NCBI GenBank assembly: GCA_003024175.1
Contig: MDYQ01000030.1
Location: 118,199-182,198, forward strand
Direction: 5' to 3'
DNA length: 64,000 nt
From: Planoprotostelium fungivorum
Lineage: Eukaryota; Evosea; Variosea; Cavosteliida; Cavosteliaceae
The translations under genes were made by a program, and so were the position numbers. This document shows positions 4,885 through 18,800 of the stretch, piece after piece. Numbering within the stretch: position 1 is the stretch's first letter; every line of letters begins with the position of its first letter. Below the pieces are notes generated by a model. It searched no databases. It saw only the letters and a program-made list of their open reading frames with translations, and was not told where the DNA came from.

Positions 4885-7029
4885 CTAAGGTAGAGAGATC
4901 GCATACTTGGCCAGTACAACAAAGTTGGGGGTTCCCAAACCTGTTATTGGATCCCAGCCTGCAACGGCATGAAAGCCAGGGCAGCGCCCAAAACGATTAC
5001 TACCGCTGACGACGTCATAGAAAGCGTTAGGAATAGTTGCAGCCTTGTAGAGAAGGGGGTTGATGAATCCCAAAGGCTTTTTTCCATTCTAGAACCAGTC
5101 AGATCTTTTTGCGCCATTTTCTTCACCTTCAGACGGATACCATTGATGATAGAAATCATACCACTAAAGGTGGGGGCAGAGCAAGAGGTACCAGACTCAT
5201 ATCCAACGAAGCCCTTAACGACAACTCGGAAGCCAGTACCAACTGTAGAGACATCAGGCCGACCTCTACCACTAGCGTTAAAGTAGCTAGTAGGCAAGTT
5301 GGGAGTTTTTAAGAACTTATCCACAGCAGCCTGTTGCCAAGCAGGGATACCAACTTCATTTGCAAAACCTCCACCACTAAATTCGGTTCCAACTTCACTG
5401 TAAGATCCATCTGTTTGAGTCAGAAACAATAAATGAGATAAAATGACTTTTACCATGTTCAATATGAATTCTGGTGGCGCCAACAAGAGTAACCCAAGGG
5501 CTGGGCGGGAAATCAGGTTGAAAGGACTTTCCATCACTGCTGCAACCCACTCCATCATCACCTGATGCGTGTGAAGGGGTGTGGGATAGATGTAGGCACT
5601 TACCAGAGCCATAGATAGTGGTGACACCACGTGTACCAAGCTTCATGTACTCATCTGAGATTCTATTGACCTGTTCGTCATCAGCTCAGGCCAATCGTCA
5701 AGATGACAATGGTGATTATGATGTGTCAGGAGGAGGAGAAGGATAGTGATTCAAAGATAGATACCTCGTCAATGGGGTAACCTCCATCCAGTACCCAAGA
5801 GATGGAATGAACGAGAGGGGGCTTGGGGTCGTTAACAAGATCGATCGCATACTTAAGGAAGGCAGTGTACTCATCACCATCCTGTAAACTCTTTAGATCC
5901 TATCAACTGCTCCCGCACAATGATGATGTCTCACATTATAGTTGTAGTAGTAAGTGGGGGCAAAACCACCAAGAGCAGCAAGGTATTGGATATCTAAGGA
6001 AGCCTCGTTGCCTGGTCTTGTGGGGTCGTTGTCTACATCTCCGAGGTACTTCACAACCTTGACAGAAGTCAACTTTGGGGCGAACTTCTGAAAGAAGTAC
6101 TGGAGATCGGCAGGGTCCATATTTTCTCAAGACAATGTGAGTCATCATAACAAATGGGATGTACCAAAGAATAGGAGAGAATCACCTTGTTCAAAGACAG
6201 CTTGTGTGTTGTTGACCTTCAAGTCGATAACGGGAGCGGTCACATTGTATCGAGAGCGAATGACATCGGGCGTGACATTGCGGACAATTGGACTGTTGGG
6301 GGAAGGCTCAGTCGTGTGCGATCTAACGCGGGCAAGAGGGCTCTTGGGGAATCCGTGAAGAGGTGTGACAAACTGAACTATATTGTCCAAGTGTTTGGGA
6401 ACTCTGTAAGGGGTCTCTGAACGGATGATGGGGTTGGCTGCAATGGTTGGAGAATGGATCATATGAGGGGGGGTCACACCAGCTGAGGCAGAGTGGATGT
6501 ACGTGCTCAGCTTGCAGTCAAAGAGACGCTCGACTTGAGCGGTGGTGGCACTAATCTTGATGTGACCTCCTGCAGGAGTTGTCTCATAGTCAATTCCCTC
6601 TGCATCCAACCACTGAGTAACCCGGAAGAGGACATCAGTTTCAATTCGTTCCATATCAAATGATTGAGTGTTTGTACCTCGGCTACATCAGAGGCGTGAG
6701 GGGCAGTAAGAGCTTTCAACTCGTGGAACGAGAGGTGTTGACTGAAAGAAGGAGAATCAGGATTGGAGATCTCCAGTGCAATACGTTCGACCTCGTCCAA
6801 GTTTCTCTCCTTCAGAGCAATGAACAATTCTCTGACCTATAACCCTCTCAGAAGTGTTCTCATGTCTTCTCATCCTCTAGTCTACCTTATTCTGTGCGGG
6901 TTTGCCTGCGGCAGTCCATCCATGTTTGCGACTAGCCATGAACTCTCTGGCTTTACCAGGTTCATAGACTCTGGCCTCAGTAAACGCACCAAGTGCAAGG
7001 AGTACCAGTAAGATGACGTTGCTGTGCAT
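4885..7029 (-). CDS. TPP1: Tripeptidyl-peptidase I (sedolisin, S53) precursor
   Basis: A secreted or lysosomal serine-carboxyl peptidase that removes tripeptides from protein N-termini. The start at 7029 opens a signal peptide (MHSNVILLVLLALGAFTEA). The propeptide follows (SPSFSQHLSFHEL, typical of pro-kumamolisin), then the catalytic domain. The Glu and Asp of the S53 triad sit in NEASLDIQYL, and the nucleophile in ESGTSCSAPTFSG. A calcium-site Asp is in AGWDPITGLGTPNF near the C-terminus. The gene has several small introns: one after the AQNK codons (about 6839-6888), and a 38-bp one at 5089-5126 that restores the frame from IRLK to NGKKPLGFINP. All family landmarks are present in order, so the enzyme looks intact. 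In an amoeba it would act in phagolysosomal protein digestion. That last point is inference. Confidence 0.92.
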
Positions 7030-7789
7030 TGTTGGTCGACCTAATTTGTGATGCACTCCGGCAGACCACTTTGTTCGTGTGAAATGTCTTTTTCATCACG
7101 AAGTAACCAATAATCATCGTTGTATTGATTAGGTGACTTCGGGCCGATAGCAATATTGAGAACCCGTCCATCTTTTTCGATTCAGTGAAATGTGATATGG
7201 CCTTAGCCTCAAGGAGGTGTGTCTTATCGATGGCCTCTTTCCATAGAACTCATGGATGTACCTGTCCACTGTACGTACTGATATCTACTCCCGCCAGCAG
7301 GATAATATGATCTTCTGTTAATTATCACACGATCACAACGACTCACTTGATGGATTTACTAGAATCTTTCAAGTGAATCCATCATCTCTCCGATGGACCG
7401 AATCTATGATGTACATGTCCTTTCTATCTCCAAGACTGTGAGTAATGAAATTAGCAGAATATCTGCATCATCGTGGCAAGTACGATGTCAGCCTCTCACT
7501 TCCTGCATTTGGAATAGCCCCACGTTCTGTTTCTGGTTTCGTCGATAACCTGGGAGAATCAGGCACACTACGAATCGAATCACACACATCTCTCCATCAT
7601 TATCTATATCGAGATCTGCATGAAGGTTGTCTATGGGCGTTGCAGAGACCGTCGCATACTATTTGATCGGGTCAAAGATGTGAGATGATGATAAGACTAA
7701 CCTCTTTGTCTTCAAAATGGTCCTTCAATCGCATATATTGATTACAGTACTGCTGATCGATTCGAGGCATCACTTTATCACAGTTGAAT
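7030..7789. other. Intergenic region between TPP1 start and LSD1-SRI stop
   Basis: This is the upstream region of the peptidase gene and the 3' flank of the demethylase gene. No ORF has recognisable content. The one at 7445-7666 is 73 codons of ordinary composition. It contains the interleaved inverted repeats at 7344-7384. Confidence 0.5.
7344..7384. repeat. Interleaved inverted repeats (pseudoknot-like)
   Basis: CACTTGA at 7344-7350 pairs with TCAAGTG at 7369-7375, and TGATGGATT at 7348-7356 pairs with AATCCATCA at 7376-7384. The arms are interleaved rather than nested, the order seen in H-type pseudoknots. The two left arms overlap by three bases, so the stems would compete or be coaxial. 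Confidence 0.5.
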
Positions 7790-10700
7790 TCAGTTGAACG
7801 GTGGCTTCTTATCCTCCTTCATCTTCTTGACGTAATCCACCACCAACTTGTTCACTCTCTGCTTCATCTGCTCCCTCTCTTCCTCTCCCATCTTCTCTTC
7901 TCCTCCACTCCTCTTCATCTCTTTACTCCCACAGATGTGAGTCAACTTCCTCGCCAACTGTCTCATCATTAGTCTCTTCCATCATCATCATTCATCACGC
8001 ACGTGTTTAAAGTCTTCCTTCTGCATCTGTTTACCGTGCTTGGCCACGGTTTTAGACAGACTCGAGACGACTGCAGAGGACAACAAGTCCTTCGTCTCTC
8101 TCGGTAGCTTGATCTCCTGGCTGACGTTGAGTTCTGTCTTCTTGACATCTTCTGTCGATGTGGTTGGTGTTGGATCAGATGTTGGTGGTCTCTGTTGTAG
8201 GATGGGATGTCTCTGCTCCACGCTTCTCTCTTCTGAATGGATGGGTGGAGATTGATGATGAAGAGGATGAGGTTGATGATGAGTGGGGTGAGGTTGTGGC
8301 TGTGGAGGGTAGGTCGCCTGCGTGACGTCATCACACGTCATCACATTCTCTCACCTCTTGACGAGGTGGCTGGTTGTAGTACGACCTCTGTTCTCTGTTC
8401 TGTACATATATATAGTCGTTGTGTGGTCTGTCCCTGTAGTTCCTCTCGTGTGGTGATCTTTCAACGGAAATCTGTTGACGTTTGGCGGGAGAGGGTGAAT
8501 AATACGGGCGAGTTGTAGATGGCGACAATTGCTGTGAAAATTCCGAGGACGGCGTGGTAGGTATCGTGGCCGCTGCGGCGGCGGCTCTCGCCCTGAGTGA
8601 AATCAGTCGAAATTCAAATTTCAAATGTCTCACCTGGCGGGAAGAAAGTCCAAGGCCCTCTTGTTGCACTGATTTGGATTGTAATAATCTCCAAATTTCT
8701 CCTCCTTCTTGATGCCATTCTGACTCAATCCACTGTTTCGGTCGACCGATGAAGAGGGAAGAGAAGAGAGGGAGGTCGATGCATCGTTGATCTGTCCTTC
8801 CACTCTCTTTGGTATCTTGTACACGCTGCTGAATAGCCAAGAATAGCTCGGGTTAAATTTAGCCTTCTTCATCTTGAAGCCCCTCCTGCCCCTGCGGGTT
8901 CCCTTCCTCTCTGCGTTAATTTTGGCTCTCAGTCTCTTCTGCTGGTTCTTTTTCTGTGGTGTCTTAACATGCTCAGAGGTCCACTCCTTGTACAGCGTCT
9001 GCACGTCGAAATCGACGACGATTTCTCCTTGAAATTTCCGGCAGATATCACCCGCTGTCCTCAAGCCACTGAGGTAAGCACCTGACGAGCGTCACGGATT
9101 CGAATTCTCCGCGAGATTTCTCACCGGCGGCCGTGGCCGGATGGGTCCTCGTCGTGGCTTCTCCCGCGAAAAACAAGTTTTCATCGACTTTTCGGGCCAA
9201 ACTGTCGTAATCGTCACCGCTGCTGTTGACTGCGATGTAAGAGTAAGATCCCATGGCAAATGGATCGCTCCCCCAGCGAGTTACGATGCTTCGAGTGGGG
9301 CGAGGGATCTCTCTGCCGAACAACTTTCCCAGTGACGTCATCACACGTGATACGATCTATTTTTAGAGTCAGTGGCGGGTTGTAGATGACGTTACCTCTT
9401 CTTCACTGCGGGTCTCCGAGGCGTAAGCGGCTTCCCCGGCCATGAGAGCGATGAGAACCGGACGGCCCATGCACCTGTGGCTCGGTTTCAATCCCCACTC
9501 CCTCCCTTTTTTCACCTGTGGAGGTTCCAGTATAAATAAAATTCGCCTCTGTGACGACCCTCGTCCGCCGTCTGACCAAAGTAATCTAATTCATCGTTCC
9601 AGAAGACTTCGGGGAAGAGTAGTACCACCTCCAAGAATGAGATCGACGTGATGAAATGCTTCTCACCTTGTTCAATAAACCAAAACCGAGATTATCAATG
9701 GATTTCTGTTTCCATTCCGGTAGTGGAGGTGAAAATTGGATGCTCCTGTTCCCATCAGCTCGAAATGTCATAGAAAACTCACTTGGATTTCAATACTCCC
9801 AGGGAAACGGTACAGAGGACGGCATCACACTGGATGTCCCCCGACGATGTCGTTACTATGGCACTGTGATCCTTTGCATCTCCGGTGTTGTAAGTCACCA
9901 TGGATACCGAAGTGTTCAGACGTAGATCGAGCCCGTCGTGCAGTCGATCGGCTATGCTGCCGTAGCCTTGTCTCAAGAGGCAGTGATCGCCGGCCCAATC
10001 ATAAGAGTCGTCTTGGTCCCAATTTTTACGCGACACCTATCCATTTCATCAGCACCATCAGACGATCATGATCACGTCCATCATCGCGGCACGTCTTCGC
10101 ATCACGCCTTGACATGATCATCTCATCACCTTGTGTAGATCGATGGCACATCCATATTCGAGATTTGCCACGTGCCAATCGAACAGTCGATCTCTCTTCT
10201 TCTTCTCTTCCTCACTCCACTCTTCCCCGTTCTTCTTCCTCAAGATATCGATCGATGCACCCAACGACTCTTCTAATTCTTCTCTCTCTTCTGCACACTG
10301 CTGAAGTACCGTATTGAACAAGCCTTCCACTTGTTTGTCTGTCTCCTTGTCCACGTGGACTCCATCGATGTCGTAGATGGGGCACTCGTAGGTGAGAGGA
10401 TGGAGCTTTGTCTCCAGTTGCTTGCAGACTGTGGTCAGGGGGTTACCCTCTAAACCGGTGACGATGGATGCGCCGAGATCGACTCCCTCGCCGAGCGACC
10501 TGTCCGTGTTGACCCTTCCACCGACTCGATTCCTTCCTTCTAAGAGGGTGACCTGATGGAGTCATCACGATCATGTGATATGGACACGTGAACATGATGA
10601 TGCGAACCTGATAGCCGAGATGATGGAGCTGACGGGCGGCGGCGAGCCCGGACATACCAGCACCGATGACCACGACTTTGTATTGTCTGTCTGGTTTCTC

Positions 10701-11256
10701 TGGAACGGCATGCTTGACGACTCCAGTGTTGATGAATCCGTAGCGAGATAGAAATTGGTGGGCGGGGGAAACGAAAGGGCGATATTTCGTCTGCACGGTT
10801 CACATTAGAAGGGATGGGTGAGAGTGTGATAGAATGCAGGTAATAATGGTGGGTGAGAGGGTGGGGAATGTACTCTCTCACTTGTATGGACTTTTCGGCC
10901 GCTTCGACCGTGATGAATTTGTGTAAATCGTCTTGCCAGAGTGTCAAGATGTGATTTCTGGTAGACACGTAGACCTCTTGGGCATCAACGAAAGCGGGGA
11001 GAGCTTGTTTCTCTAATTCTGACATATCAAACGGTGGGAGATCAGCCGCCAATGCAGCCACTATCACATGATTAGAGGAAATCCGAAAATCAGAGGGGTA
11101 GGGTCAAGTGACACTGTACGACCACTCACCTTGATCTTTCTGCAAGATATCATCGTCCGTCGTTTCATCGTTCTCTTCATCGTTATAATTGACCTTCGCC
11201 TTCTCTTTCAGACGCTTACTACTGCGTCCCTCTCCATTCTTCTTAGAAATGCCCAT
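7790..11256 (-). CDS. LSD1-type lysine demethylase fused to SETD2-like SRI domain
   Basis: A multi-exon gene for about 1,000 residues. A basic, acidic-tailed N-terminus starts at 11256. Next is a SWIRM domain (ALPAFVDAQEVYVSTRNHIL ... FLSRYGFINTG), then a flavin amine oxidase domain. The FAD-binding motif is VVVIGAGMSGLAAARQL, the conserved flavin-side lysine is in PPLPEWKQ, and the C-terminal FAD motif is FFAGEATTRTHPATAAGAYL. RLFDWHVANLEYG runs straight into YDWAGDHCLLRQGYG, so there is no Tower insertion. This resembles plant LDL/FLD proteins rather than animal KDM1A. The frame then continues through a basic linker and a Pro/His/Arg-rich stretch. It ends with an SRI-type domain: EDFKH splices to LARKLTH, then a basic helix to PPFN-stop. 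The junctions at about 8595-8635, 8300-8337 and 7945-8000 all have GT-AG ends and keep the frame. The enzyme would be nuclear and would demethylate histone lysines. The SRI would tether it to phosphorylated RNA polymerase II (inference). Confidence 0.8.
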
Positions 11257-11358
11257 TCGCCACGATCGATAATCACGTCAATGATGCGCCGATACGACCG
11301 TTGTAATTTAAAAAGGTGAATTTTTCGCATTTTCATACAAACCACAAAGGCCGTTTAT

Positions 11359-12646
11359 TTAGAGGAAGTATCGCTGCAGCTTCTCGTAGACCACCAAGGT
11401 GATACCAAAGAGGGGAGAGATGATCATCATACGAGGAACGGCTCCCTTGTATAGAGCTCTGGGTCCCTCCTCTGTTCGAATCATTCAGAATGACATGGAT
11501 GATTACGACGTCGATCATCGTCCCACCTTTCAATATGCGGTTGAAACAATCGGCGATGCCTTTGTATGGAACGGCTCCCTGCTTGACTTGAATCCTCGTC
11601 TTGATGACGTCGGCGGGGGTGACAAGGCCTCCTGCGAACATTCCCGCAGCAGAAGAGGCGACGAAGAGTTGAAGGACAGACAGCGGCTTACCCTGCTGTT
11701 TCTCGAGTTGAATGGCCTTCAAGTTTCCGTACAAGGAGAAGTAGAGGGCGCTGATGGAGGTCAGTGATGCATGGGATGGAGAGAGACCGATGAGATAGAG
11801 GATGGTCTGACCTGAACGGAACGTCTCGGAGGAGGGTGGCGGCTGAGCCCTTGAATAGACCTCTGAAGCCCAACTCCCTCACGACGGTGATGCCTGATTT
11901 TCTACCGGCACCCTCTAAAGCTTGCGTCTGCAGTCTCACTTTGACAATTTCGTATCTGTCTTTTTTTCAATTCTCTCTGCGTGTGAAGACATCATGGTGG
12001 ACTCGATCATCTCGATTCTTTAGACTTATACGAAGAGAATGGGTGAGAGGACGGTTGAAAAGATGGAGACGCACGGATTGGTGGCTACGACTTGAGATAA
12101 ACCGGCGGCCATTCCTGCCAGGACCTCATACTGCAACTTGATCTTTCCAGTTTTCTTGTCGGTTGATGCATAGCGGATGTAATCGTTGATCGTAAGCTTG
12201 ATGGCCTTCTCTGGTGTGATACCAACCTAATCGACATATGAGATGGAGATGATGTTCTAATGGAGAAGAAGAAAGAAGGGGGAGACTCACCAGTTGAGCG
12301 GGGAGACCTCTGTAGAGACCTCGAACACCTTCGGCGGCAATGATCTTTCTGAAGCAATCGAGGACACCGTTGTATTGTCGGACTGCACCTCTCTGATTTT
12401 GCATGCGTGTCTTGACCATGTCTAATGGAAATGTGCTGCATGCTCCTATGATACCTACGAATTCATTTCAGGTGGCGTGAGAGGATGATAGGATGATATG
12501 CCTCACCTGCAATTCCACCCATGACCAAGTTTTTCAAGATTGTTTTTCCAATGGAGGGCTGTTTGACCACAACAGGGGCCGTCGGAGTTTGATTGTTCTA
12601 AATACGAATCAGGTGGTGGTTTAGACATCTGCGAACATACACTCAT
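11359..12646 (-). CDS. Mitochondrial carrier, aspartate/glutamate (aralar) type
   Basis: An inner-membrane solute carrier with three repeated halves. The signature P-x-[DE]-x-x-[KR] appears three times: [22 protein letters not shown] (rebuilt across an intron) and [11 protein letters not shown]. The C-terminus ([15 protein letters not shown]) and the second and third signatures resemble the carrier half of aralar/citrin. The calcium-binding EF-hand half of those proteins is absent: the first exon is only ATG-AGT and is followed by about 20 residues before the first repeat. The stop codon at 11359 overlaps an AATAAA hexamer, so the 3' UTR must be very short. The gene shares a 193-bp divergent promoter region with the coiled-coil gene at 12840. 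Substrate specificity is a family inference. Confidence 0.85.
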
Positions 12647-12839
12647 CGTATGGTTGAGGGAGGAGGGCTGCTTTGTAAATGGTCGGACTGTAAGGGAACC
12701 CCGGATGTGCTCGTTGTAGTTGGCCGGATGCGCGGACGATTATTTCTGGCGGGAAACACCTGATCACGAAGCTTCTTAACGGTGAGCTTCGAGATTACCT
12801 GCGCCGCAGGCGCCAATTGAGAAGATCTATGAGAGGACA

Positions 12840-15800
12840 ATGAAGTCTTCTGTGGGGCATGACGACCGCCGCCTACGAGAAGCCATTCTCGAACATAGAA
12901 TGCACGAATCGGTGAGTGTCTCTTGCATCTTTCTATGTGAATATATCGCAATATCATTTCGTCGAAAATGACATTCCAATCCAGAGATCACCCAAAAGAC
13001 CACGCGTAGAGATACGCATCGAAGAGACAGATCTTTACCCTACAAGATCACTGACACGAAAGATCAGTCCAGAGAGACAGAGACCGACACCTCAGAGAGA
13101 TGTCATGCCACCTCGTCCGCCCGTGAAGAGGAGTGAGCCCGTGTGTCCTGGAGACGTCACAGCCTACATGCGGCGTAAGACAGAAGAGAGAAAGATGAAA
13201 GAGAAACAGTCGAACCGAGAGAAGTTGAAGGAAGAGAAGAGAAAGAGAGAAGCCATCCACGGCATCCAAGAGAGAAACAAAAAATTGTACAGGAGAGGTG
13301 AGTTCATCGACCGAAAGATCATATCGAATGACATGGCACAGCTGGTGCAGATCACCATCACGATGGAGATCCAGATGAAGATGCTTTCGTGTCGGGCTTC
13401 GCCCAAGACTACGCCTTCCAGCAACGCTCCTTCTCCACATCGCGTCAGCCCACCATCATCCATCATCCACCTTCTAATGCATCCAAACCTGCCCCCCAGC
13501 CGTCCAGAAGTAAGAGCCCAGTCCGAGCACCCGTCAAGAGTCCAGTCCGGATTCCATCCAGTCCAACTCGGACTCCACCTCCTCGCCGGGCGATCAGCCG
13601 CCGCGACGGAATCCGGACCAACAGCGTCCAACAGCTTCCATCCGAGATTCCAACATCGTCCGCCCCACCATCTAGACCGTACACCTCTTCCACGTTTCCC
13701 GCCAGAAATTTCGACGAATCTTTCGAGATCTCTCCCTTCATCACCAGGGGACAGAAGATGATTCTGTCACCCGAATTCATCCAACCGGTCACCCTCCATG
13801 ACTTGAATTCCCCTCAACCCAAACGAGAGAAGCAACCGAAGACCGTCGTGGAGAATCAGTGGAGAAGGGACGGGAGCGGCTCCTGTGGGCCCACCCACGG
13901 TACAACCGAAGGCCGTCGGCCCATCCGCGAAGCTCTCTTGTTTGCGAAACGAGTGGCCACCGAAGAGGAAGAAGAGAAGGTACCGCCCGGGCGAGACCCA
14001 TCTCAAGACAGAATGAAAGCCATCAGCAGCCAAGCAGAAGAGCTATCACAGAGGATCGCCAATCTGTACTCGCGAGTGGCAACGAAGGAGAGAACCAATG
14101 GACCACCGAGGGAGGAACCCTTGTCGAGACGATCGCAGACGAGGGAGGAACAGTTTAGACAGCAGCAGATGATGGAGGAGCAAATGAGGGTGGAGCAAAT
14201 GAGGGAGGAGCAAATGAGGGAGGAGCAGATGAGGGAAGAGAAGACGAGAGAAATTGCAGAGAGGATGCGATTGGAATCGTTAGAGAGGGAAGAGAAGATG
14301 TTCAGAGACAAATTACTGCAGAGGGAGAGACAGACGAGGAGGGAAGCAGAACTGCAGCTGCAGAGAGAGAGACTGCAGAGGGAGCAGAGGCTGTCACTCG
14401 ACAGAGAACAGATGTACAGGGAGCCTTACGTCTATCGAGGAGAGACCACTCAGCCACCTCTGAGAGAGACTCTGCTGAACGAACGAGGAGGACACATGTA
14501 TGATGACAGCAGACCCCCTCGTTACTCAGATCAATCTCGGCCCTTGTACAATGGAAAATCGAGTGAAAATTCGATATACGTAGATCACGTGACGAGCCCC
14601 CACGGAACCATTCCACTGGGCCGAGTCGGAGTTTCCGATCGATTTGCGGTGAGATTTCTGGGAATTTTCGAGGAAGATCTGATGGAAATTCAGGTCTATC
14701 TCAACCGTGAGAAGAATCGAATCGATAATGAAGCAGCGAAGAACATTCAGAGAATCTTCAGAGGCTTTCGCGTTCGCATTTGGTTGAAGCGAAATCAGAT
14801 CATCTTACGTCCTCCCTATTCGAATGTAAATTCGAGATCAAACGATCAGCCCAAAGCACCAACTACAATCAGTCAGTCAGTGGAATACAACCAGCCACAA
14901 CCCGTCCCCGTCGATCCCGTGGAACTTAAAAAATCGGAGATTTCAAAGACAGAGAAGGACATTAACATATCGAGTCCAATTGTAATGGGTGAGATGCCAG
15001 AACTACCACTGAGAGACGAAAAGAGAGAGGAACCATTGCACGTCGACATCTTAACTGAACCGATGAGAAGGTGTCATACATGAGAGATTCAAGTGGATGC
15101 ATTCTGACCCGTGTGATAGCACCAGTCCTCCCTCTCCATTCAATGACAATAGAGTACTCTCTCACCTCAAGAGAAGAGAAATCCATCACGACGGCGACGG
15201 CCTCAACCAAACGAAGGACGAAACGTTCCATTCACTGAACCATCCATCTCTTCACCGAACGACCGACACTTCCCCCACTTCCATCTACAACCCGCTCGAC
15301 ACGATCCACTCTCAAGATCCCGCATTCACCTCCGTGGACTCGTTCTCTTCACCGAGACATTCTTTCGTCTTAGAGGAGAAACGTCTGGCCTCAACATCGA
15401 ATCTATCTCTCATAGAGATCCTACCGGTGAGACAGTGGGTGGATCGCACTCTGGGTGCAGAAGTCATCGGCGGTTCTATGAGTCGACTGGCTGGCCTGCA
15501 CGGATCTGGAAGGTTGCCACCTTCCACACGCACTTTAGAAGAGCCAGTGTCCATCGTTGTGGGAGACAAGATGTCTATCGTCAATCTGTTGGCCGAGAGG
15601 ATGCTGCACAAGGAAAAGAGTCCGGAGGCATCGAGAAGAACGAATGAAATTTCGACGGAAATTCCGACTCTGCAGAGAGTGGAAGAGATGAGGTGCGTAA
15701 TGTACGTACGTGAGAAGCTGAAATCTCGTAGAAATTCGAAGAGTGATTTCGGGGTGCAGACGGAATCGGAGATGAATGTGTCGGCACAGATTGTCATGCA

Positions 15801-18800
15801 TTCTCTCCCGTCCACTCGTTTGCCCTCTTTTACGTTTCAGAACCAAGTTCAACCGTCTCATCATCATCATGATCATGATGAAGCTCACGAGATGTCACAC
15901 GTTGCGTCTCCAGCGCGGCCAACGACAGCTTCACCTCGAAAGAGTGAAGGTAAAGAGGAGGAGATAGAGAGGACGAGCGCACGTATCGAACGACCGAGTC
16001 CGAGGAGGAGTCCAAATCCGTCCAGATCTTCCGTCCGACCTCCACCCCGGGAAGCACCTGACGCACTCTACGAGAGGATGCAGAACGAAATCAATCTGTT
16101 GGACAACTACAACGAGTCACTCCTGCAATTGGACGCACTCTCCAGCACCCGTGCCATCAACATGGCTCAACACGAGACTGGCCTGCTCTATTCTACTTTC
16201 CTTCACGAGAAGCAATTGGAACAGATGAGGCTGACTTTGACCAATGAAATGAGAGAGAGCCAAGCGGCGTCACAGAGAGAGATGCAGAAGATCCAAGAGG
16301 CCTCGCAGAGAGAGATCGAGAGGCTACAGGACGCCCTCAAACGAGAAGAAGCGAGGAGGTGAGGAGATCTGACGGAAATTTGGGGGAAATTCGAATGACT
16401 CTTCGCAGGTTAGAAGACGAGATGGAACGCATCGCCAAGAGCATCGAGGTACGTACAAGTGATGACGTCATCACACGTCATCAACAGATGCACAGGCAGA
16501 GAGTGAGAGGATGAGACTTCAGATGGAGACGGAGAACGAAGGAATCAGAAGACAACTCGAAAAGGAGAAGAAGAAACAGCAGGAAGAGCTGTCTCTATTG
16601 GAGGATCAACTGAGAGAAACAGCACGCAGACAGGCCGACCTCATTGTGACAGACGAAGAGAGGAGGAAGAGAGAGAGAGAAGAAGGAGAGAAGAAGGAGA
16701 TGGAGAGAATCGAGCAGAGAAGGATGGTCAACGATCTACAACGGCAGCTGGAGGAAGTGAAGAGGACGGCAGAATATCAGATGAACCGGAAAGATTCGGA
16801 GATCAATCTGCAGATGATGGAGAAACAGAGGGAGATGGTGGAGAAGCAGAGGGACATGTACGAGAAGCAGCAGGCACAGATGGAGCACCAGAGGCTGACA
16901 GCTCAGATGGTGGCCAAACAAGAGCAGATGGAGAGTTCCATGAAGATGCAGCAGCTGCAGATGCAGATCGATACGATGACGACTCAGTTCAAGAGACAAG
17001 TGAGATCTATACTTTCTACTCCCTCTCACATCTGATCAGGAGAGAGACCTAGAATTGAAAGAACAAGCGATCGCCGACGCCACACTACAACGCGACAGAC
17101 AGATGGAAGAAGTGACTCGAGCTCGCATCAAGATGGAGGAGGACATGAAGGAGAGAGAAGAGAGATTGAAGCAAGCTGTGGCCAGCATGAAGAGTACACA
17201 GATCGTCAGAGACATTCAGATTCAGACGGAGACAGACAGATTGGATGACCTGAGAGAGTACAGGAGGGGTTATTCCTCTGTCGACAGCTCTTTCATGTCG
17301 ACTACGGACTCTAGCTTTGCAGACGATACAGATAGTGAATACGAGAGGTGGAAGAAGGAGAAGAAGAGGAAGAAGGAAGCGGAGGTAGAGGAGCAGAAGG
17401 AGAAAGAAGAGAAGAGAGAAGAGAAGAAGATAGAAAAGAAGGCAGAGAGGAAGGAAGAGAAGACGGAGAAGAGAGAAGAGAAGAAGCTAGAGAAGGAGAA
17501 GGTACCCAAGATTGACAAGAGAGAGCGAGTCAGTATCATCTCTTCCTCCACAGATGAATCAGAGACAATCAGACAAGTTCCCAGAGATGCTCCACAGATT
17601 CTCCATTCCCAGGGAGATGATGGAGAATCGAAGACGGTGACGGAAGACGAAGTGTCAGATGCAGTCACTGCGAGTGAGTCTTCGTTGTAGATTTTATCTT
17701 CTCACGAGATATCAGAGGAATCGGAAGAGGAGGAGGAAGAAGAGGTGAGGAAGCGTCATGCTGATCTGTCGCCACCATCATGATGAGCGGCTGACTGATG
17801 ATGAATAGGAGGAGAGCGAGTCAGACGAGAGTTATGAGACAGAAGAGGAGGAAGAAGAGGAGAGTGAAGAAGAGACACCGAGGGAGAAGGAAGCAACAGA
17901 AGACGAAGTCTCGGATGATTTTGAAGACGAGGAAGAAGAGAAGATTGAGATTGCAAAGAAGGCAGAAGAGAAGAGGAAGGAGGAAGAGAGGGAGATCAAA
18001 GAAAAGAAGGAGGAAGAGAGGAAGATCAAAGAAAAGGAGGAAGAGAACAGAAGGAGAGACGAAGAGAAGAAGAGGGAAGAAGAGAGAAAGAGAGAGGAGG
18101 AAGAGAAGAGAGAAGTGGAGAGAAAGAAGGAAGAGAAGAGGGTGGAAGAAGAGAGGAGAAAGATGGAGGAGGAGATCGAAGAGAGGAAGAGGAAGCTGGA
18201 GGAAGAGAAGAAGAAGATGGAAGAAGAGAGGAGGAGAGAAGAGGAGAGACTGCAGCAGGTCAAGAGAGAGATCGAGGAGGAGAAGAAGAAGTTGGAGGAC
18301 AGGAGGAGAGAGATGGAGGAAGAGAGGAAGAGGACAGAGGAGGAGAGGAAGAAGGTAGAAGAAGAGAGGAAGAGAGCAGAAGAGGAGAGGAGAGAGGAGG
18401 AGAGGAAGAGGGAGGAGAGAGAGAAGGAAGACATGGAGAGGGCCTTAGAAGAGAAGAGAAACAACGAGAGGAGGAAGGAGGAGAAAGAAGAAGAGAGAAA
18501 GAGGAAGGAGGAGAAAGAAGAAGAGAGAAAGAGGGAGGACAAGAGGAGAGAGGAAGAGAAGAAGGAAGAAGAGAGGAGAGAGCAAGAGAGAAAGCGAGAA
18601 GAAGAACAGAAGAGACGAGAAGAAGAGAGGAGGAAGGAGGAAGAGAGGATAGAACAAGCGAGGATAGAGCGAGAGAGGGAGGAGGAGATACAGGAGGAAA
18701 AGAGACAAGAGGAGGAGCGAAAGAAGGAGGAGCAGAGGAAGGTTGAAGAAGAAAACAAGAGACAAGAGGAAGAGAAGAAGAAACAAGAGGAAGAGAAGAA

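Follow-up and report, generated by a model that had tools for sequence, protein, structure and literature searches.

A predicted LSD1-type demethylase gene that ends in an SRI domain, and its likeness to plant LDL3

Does a single gene join a histone demethylase of the LSD1 type to the SRI domain known from SET2/SETD2, and how might the product of such a gene work? A sequence-only reading of this locus proposed a fusion of this kind. The window considered here is the whole stretch of DNA that was analysed (64,000 nucleotides, C234:118199-182198), and it belongs to an assembly of 36.86 Mb in 471 contigs. Our spliced model of the gene, which lies on the minus strand, predicts a protein of 945 residues in which Pfam recognizes, from N to C terminus, a SWIRM domain, an LSD1-type amine oxidase domain and an SRI domain, each with a match above the curated Pfam cut-off. 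The parts of the gene are listed here in window coordinates.

7790..11256, minus strand: whole coding region, SWIRM - amine oxidase - linker - SRI (spliced model, 13 exons, 945 aa)
10728..11028, minus strand: SWIRM domain, aa 54-123, exons 2-3 (Pfam PF04433, E 4.4e-13)
9044..10655, minus strand: LSD1-type amine oxidase domain, aa 148-569, exons 3-10, without a Tower (Pfam PF01593, E 6.3e-84)
8054..9043, minus strand: linker of about 300 aa, exons 10-12, a basic patch followed by a P/H/Q-rich stretch (open frame)
8593..8633, minus strand: intron 10, 41 bp, phase 2 (second of 189 candidate introns)
8318..8354, minus strand: intron 11, 37 bp, phase 0 (first of 189 candidate introns)
8003..8053, minus strand: 5' part of the SRI domain, exon 12, with F888 and K889 (PF08236, aa 874-938)
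7958..8002, minus strand: intron 12, 45 bp, phase 0, which splits EDFKH from LARKLTH
7814..7957, minus strand: 3' part of the SRI domain, exon 13, with R893 and H897 (PF08236; human SETD2 SRI 2a7o, E 1.8e-5)

All 12 introns of the model have GT-AG borders, and their sizes range from 37 to 93 bp. The end of the oxidase domain, ATAAGAYLSG, is encoded in exons 9-10, and from there the frame stays open across introns 10, 11 and 12 to EDFKH-LARKLTH and a basic tail that ends at 7790. This agrees with the sequence-only reading, which had followed the oxidase end without a stop through three in-frame GT-AG introns to the same residues. Its intron coordinates hold to within about 20 bases, with the correction that the middle intron is 8354-8318 and not 8337-8300. 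A stop codon enters the model if intron 10, 11 or 12 is kept (each was tried), and the alignment to the solved SETD2 SRI domain crosses the intron 12 junction free of gaps.

The splice sites of the linker were scored with matrices derived from the remaining ten introns of the same gene model (introns 1-9 and 12); nine of these (2-9 and 12) fall within domain matches, and intron 1 was placed by frame only. Among the 189 GT-AG candidates in the linker, intron 11 tops the ranking with a score of 10.57 and intron 10 follows with 10.54, and both exceed all ten leave-one-out scores of the training introns (-0.73 to 10.07). Removing these two introns joins the oxidase frame to the SRI frame. An enumeration of splice paths by summed score was rejected as a test of frame, given that its top totals were paths with added introns that ended in all three frames. 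Because every extra intron adds score, such sums are uninformative, and the ranks of single introns were used instead. Codon scores favour the model frame clearly in exon 10 (0.080 vs -0.380 and -0.278), slightly in exon 12 (0.003 vs -0.036), and as the best frame in exon 13. In exon 11 none of the three forward frames contains a stop, and the model frame is not favoured (-0.084 vs -0.190 and -0.058).

The weak coding score of exon 11 would also suit a locus with two products, namely a demethylase that ends in exon 10 and an SRI-only protein of about 170 residues that begins at an ATG at 8341 and splices intron 12. Retention of intron 10 immediately creates a stop codon straddling 8633, giving an end that lacks the SRI domain, and the ATG at 8341 lies within intron 11 and is in frame with exon 12. 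However, such an arrangement seems unlikely to us when introns 10 and 11 are the two best of all the candidates and exon 10 is so clearly coding in the model frame. Furthermore, an SRI-only gene would need a promoter inside or beside coding exons. We regard the one-gene demethylase-SRI fusion as real, a gene prediction that is confirmed and well supported at the level of sequence.

A second copy of the region provides a further comparison. The interval C129:1-10302 repeats window 7731-17991, about 10.3 kb, and is identical to it from 17991 down to 8284. From 8284 to 7731 the C129 copy shows 18 substitutions relative to the window, gains 42 bp in one insertion and loses a single base, which leaves 92% identity across the last 760 bp when the insertion is counted, and similarity stops just 3' of the stop codon, at 7731. 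These differences are confined to exons 12-13, intron 12 and the flank. The insertion falls in exon 12 and is in frame, intron 12 measures 44 bp in the C129 copy owing to the 1-bp deletion and also carries one substitution, and across the 389 codons of exons 10-13 there are eight synonymous and five non-synonymous changes and no stop. Because the copies are identical in exons 10-11, the C129 copy is uninformative on that part of the gene.

The C129 copy may be an allele, a paralogue or an effect of assembly. Its pattern is odd, since the 100% identity to window 8284-17991 at the start of C129 turns to divergence only on to 7731, and this might be taken to mean that a misassembly joined two genes. 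We consider such an artefact very improbable, given that order and frame are the same in both copies despite the divergence over exons 12-13 and that the linker has good splice sites.

Several other features of the window and the genome were recorded along the way. Between window positions 16001 and 20000 the plus strand is strongly purine-biased (GC skew 0.33, AT skew 0.50), and there are internal repeats around 17956-18606. The genome contains 287 occurrences of a perfect 18-bp palindrome, ATCTACAACGTTGTAGAT, against none of the reversed control. In four of 20 contexts (L044:866, L043:348, L049:312 and L052:292) it lies, as judged by eye, a few bases inside a short GT-AG intron, and it is possibly a dispersed short element or an introner-like insert. 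Words such as CATCTACAACCCGC and GGCGGGTTGTAGAT recur across the compared loci, one of them in intron 8 of the gene described here (window 9395-9357), and these are perhaps degenerate relatives of the palindrome.

What kind of enzyme does the fusion gene encode? LSD1/KDM1 proteins are recognized in sequence by a SWIRM domain that precedes a split FAD amine oxidase domain; both are found in this order in the window protein, which would place it in that family. The best solved relative of its first 593 residues is human LSD1 (E 6e-124, 418 bits), with LSD2 next at 326 bits. Human LSD1/KDM1A shares with it the SWIRM domain, the split oxidase and key active-site residues, at an identity of 45.9% (220 of 479 aligned positions, the human sequence having been pieced together from alignments with the Tower left out). 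We compared 14 LSD1 positions. Ten are identical (K661, W695, W751, Y761, N535, D553, D555, D556, E801 and T810) and four are changed (A539, N540, D557 and H802). The first four of the identical positions, which are active-site residues of LSD1, correspond to K415, W449, W507 and Y517 of the window protein, and its demethylase active site appears to be largely conserved.

Two differences set the window protein apart from human LSD1, namely the lack of a Tower and the presence of a C-terminal SRI domain. The missing Tower had been noticed in the sequence-only reading and is borne out by the spacing of two landmarks, EGNPLT and WHVANLE, which lie 91 residues apart here and about 193 apart in human LSD1 (the human count was made by eye), and by the alignment, where a stretch of about 100 LSD1 residues that separates two aligned blocks is unmatched. 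The Tower-less state is not unusual, because LSD2 and the Arabidopsis proteins LDL1, LDL2 and FLD are likewise described as having no Tower (Martignago et al. 2019, PMC6558185). Human LSD2/KDM1B thus shares this trait with the window protein, although it scores lower than LSD1 against it and carries two zinc fingers (PMC6558185), whereas zinc-finger families found no Pfam match in the 945 residues. A 235-aa piece running from the oxidase end and covering most of the linker likewise had no Pfam match. As for relatives of the SWIRM-oxidase part, seven pattern matches in viral contigs and 40 in prokaryote contigs yielded none that was confirmed.

The SRI domain folds as a three-helix bundle. A search of the spliced protein with the Pfam SRI model, PF08236, upheld the earlier assignment of this domain, with 38.1 bits against a cut-off of 23.5 (E 1.9e-9), and exon 13 alone reaches 24.7 bits in the whole-genome scan. 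Control tails, one reversed and six shuffled, gave no match (0 of 7) at E up to 10 with the HMMER filters on, a control limited by the fact that these filters remove most weak matches. Within its last 160 residues the protein matches the human SETD2 SRI domain 2a7o at E 1.8e-5, and among the SET2/SETD2 SRI structures considered (2a7o, 9egz and 2c5z) the segment EDFKHLARKLTH is identical between human SETD2 and the window protein. The carrier differs, being a SET domain protein in SET2/SETD2 and a demethylase here.

The residues through which the SETD2 domain meets the polymerase are of particular interest. With SETD2 positions numbered from the solved chain, on the assumption that 9egz spans 1432-2564, F2505, K2506, R2510 and H2514 are identical in the window protein as F888, K889, R893 and H897, and V2483 aligns with V869. 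Earlier NMR work, as related in PMC8294582, places all five SETD2 residues in the polymerase interface. The mutants described there separate two activities: F2505A loses polymerase binding and keeps tubulin, K2506A and H2514A each lose both, R2510H loses tubulin and keeps polymerase from lysate, and V2483A keeps both.

Given that the polymerase-contact surface of the SETD2 SRI domain also binds tubulin, the SRI domain here could serve another acidic partner. The fusion could be real and yet act away from the polymerase, by binding a different acidic tail such as that of tubulin, by serving as a scaffold, or through an oxidase with a non-histone substrate. The three residues whose mutation costs SETD2 its tubulin binding, K2506, H2514 and R2510, are indeed all kept. 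However, the window protein also keeps F2505, which SETD2 requires for polymerase but not for tubulin (PMC8294582), the genome encodes a canonical RPB1 tail, and plant LDL3 is a precedent for polymerase binding (PMC10690457). On balance we find a function off the polymerase improbable.

The polymerase II of this genome is of the canonical heptad-tailed kind, since the tail encoded by its RPB1 gene, on C345, finishes with 29 perfect copies of YSPTSPS. These heptads were found by other means than the heptad-repeat profile PF05001, which had no match here or in the control genomes, and in the stretches read around other RPB1-type matches, on C297, a heptad tail is absent. The whole-genome scan places SRI domains in three positions at E up to 0.001, namely the window, the C129 copy and C1:435725. 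Because the scan goes exon by exon, an SRI domain split by introns could be missed. The third gene (C1:435695-438320, L027) has very K/E-rich open frames ahead of its SRI domain, which reaches 58.5 bits once the preceding exon is joined by guess, and in the pieces scanned SET, WW and other domains over cut-off are absent. Sedolisin-type protease-like genes, recognized by eye, adjoin two of the SRI genes, at window 4885-7100 and near the C1 gene, which may be chance.

The sole AWS match in the genome lies at C64:17030-17134 (L031) with a SET domain beside it, and the whole-genome scan gives no SRI match at this locus; therefore the only Set2-like gene found may lack an SRI domain of its own while a demethylase has one. 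The CoREST-type ELM2 domain (PF01448) has no match in this genome or in any control genome. A second LSD1-type gene, on C90, is 49.9% identical to the window protein over 469 residues, measured on a rough join of its pieces. Its SWIRM piece, one exon alone, scores 25.4 against a cut-off of 28.6, and in the pieces covered its frame closes about 50 residues beyond the oxidase domain. The exon-by-exon scan of the genome has no SRI match there, and the C90 gene apparently has no SRI domain, though it may have further spliced exons.

Similar searches bear on the host. The Dictyostelium repeat PF00526, presumably a mainly amoebozoan family, has 22 matches on 12 contigs, 20 of them over the cut-off and ten in one place. 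The light-harvesting chlorophyll-binding family PF00504 has no match in this genome, and one control genome is positive. These profiles make an amoeba a plausible host.

In our view the gene product is probably a single histone demethylase of the LSD1 family that travels with RNA polymerase II during elongation, in the manner of LDL3. The C-terminal SRI domain would grip the phosphorylated heptad tail of RPB1, the linker of about 300 residues would let the SWIRM-oxidase part reach nucleosomes beside the moving polymerase, and the oxidase would strip methyl groups during transcription, most likely from H3K4me1/2. The working mode would then equal that of the plant protein. Domain order, the in-frame splice model, the catalytic and polymerase-contact residues and the RPB1 heptad tail are read from the DNA; expression, binding, linker flexibility, substrate and direction of effect are what we infer for the window protein.

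It is important to note that this mechanism has a precedent. Much of the sequence-only reading stands, including SWIRM, oxidase and SRI in one predicted protein, the loss of the Tower, the kept interface residues and a polymerase with heptads, but its view that recruiting a demethylase by an SRI domain to elongating polymerase was an undescribed route does not, because exactly this has been published for Arabidopsis LDL3 (PMC10690457). LDL3 is an H3K4me2 demethylase of the LSD1 family that binds phosphorylated polymerase II, and deletion of its SRI domain abolishes that binding (Mori et al. 2023, PMC10690457). According to the same paper, land-plant LDL3 orthologues carry the SRI domain, human LSD2 is reported to bind the elongating machinery (citing Fang et al. 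2010), and the authors ask whether the binding of demethylases to polymerase is convergent in plants and animals. The coupling of a demethylase to the polymerase by an SRI domain is a known mechanism, and any novelty may lie in the host and perhaps the origin. Among the matches listed in a search of the print literature for SRI with Amoebozoa or Dictyostelium, none pairs them.

How closely does the window protein resemble LDL3? Both combine SWIRM, an LSD1-type oxidase and SRI, and each shares its genome with LSD1-type sister enzymes in which no SRI is seen. LDL3 is described as a protein of 1628 aa with 25-30% identity to its Arabidopsis sisters, long extensions, a long linker between SWIRM and oxidase and, at the Tower site, an insertion of some 33 aa, which one algal homologue is said to lack (Martignago et al. 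2019, PMC6558185). In contrast, the window protein has 945 aa, only 24 residues between SWIRM and oxidase (123 to 148) and no insertion at the Tower site, a distinction that is drawn from the published description of LDL3. A TFIIS-like region also belongs to LDL3, and the window protein was checked for one by Pfam scan alone.

Given the compactness of the window protein, its 45.9% identity to human LSD1 and its 49.9% identity to the C90 gene, we suggest that the window gene is closer to that paralogue and to ordinary LSD1 than to LDL3. If so, the SRI domain may have been joined to it separately. We tentatively entertain the idea, at somewhat under an even chance, that evolution has twice tethered an LSD1-type demethylase to the elongating polymerase through a fused SRI domain, once in plants and once, separately, in an amoebozoan lineage whose LSD1 core was compact and had no Tower. 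The same pattern would result, in place of a separate fusion, if the C90 gene had lost its SRI domain and LDL3 had drifted in plants.

Each outcome would matter for the biology of this family. Should the fusion prove ancestral, the removal of H3K4 methylation during transcription would long predate the land plants. If an independent origin is true, then together with human LSD2 it would mean that co-transcriptional H3K4 demethylation has evolved repeatedly, and a third lineage, with a direct SRI fusion, would open the convergence question of Mori et al. to comparative testing. With one LSD1-type gene that bears an SRI domain and another that apparently does not, this host would offer a natural pair for dissecting what tethering to the polymerase contributes.
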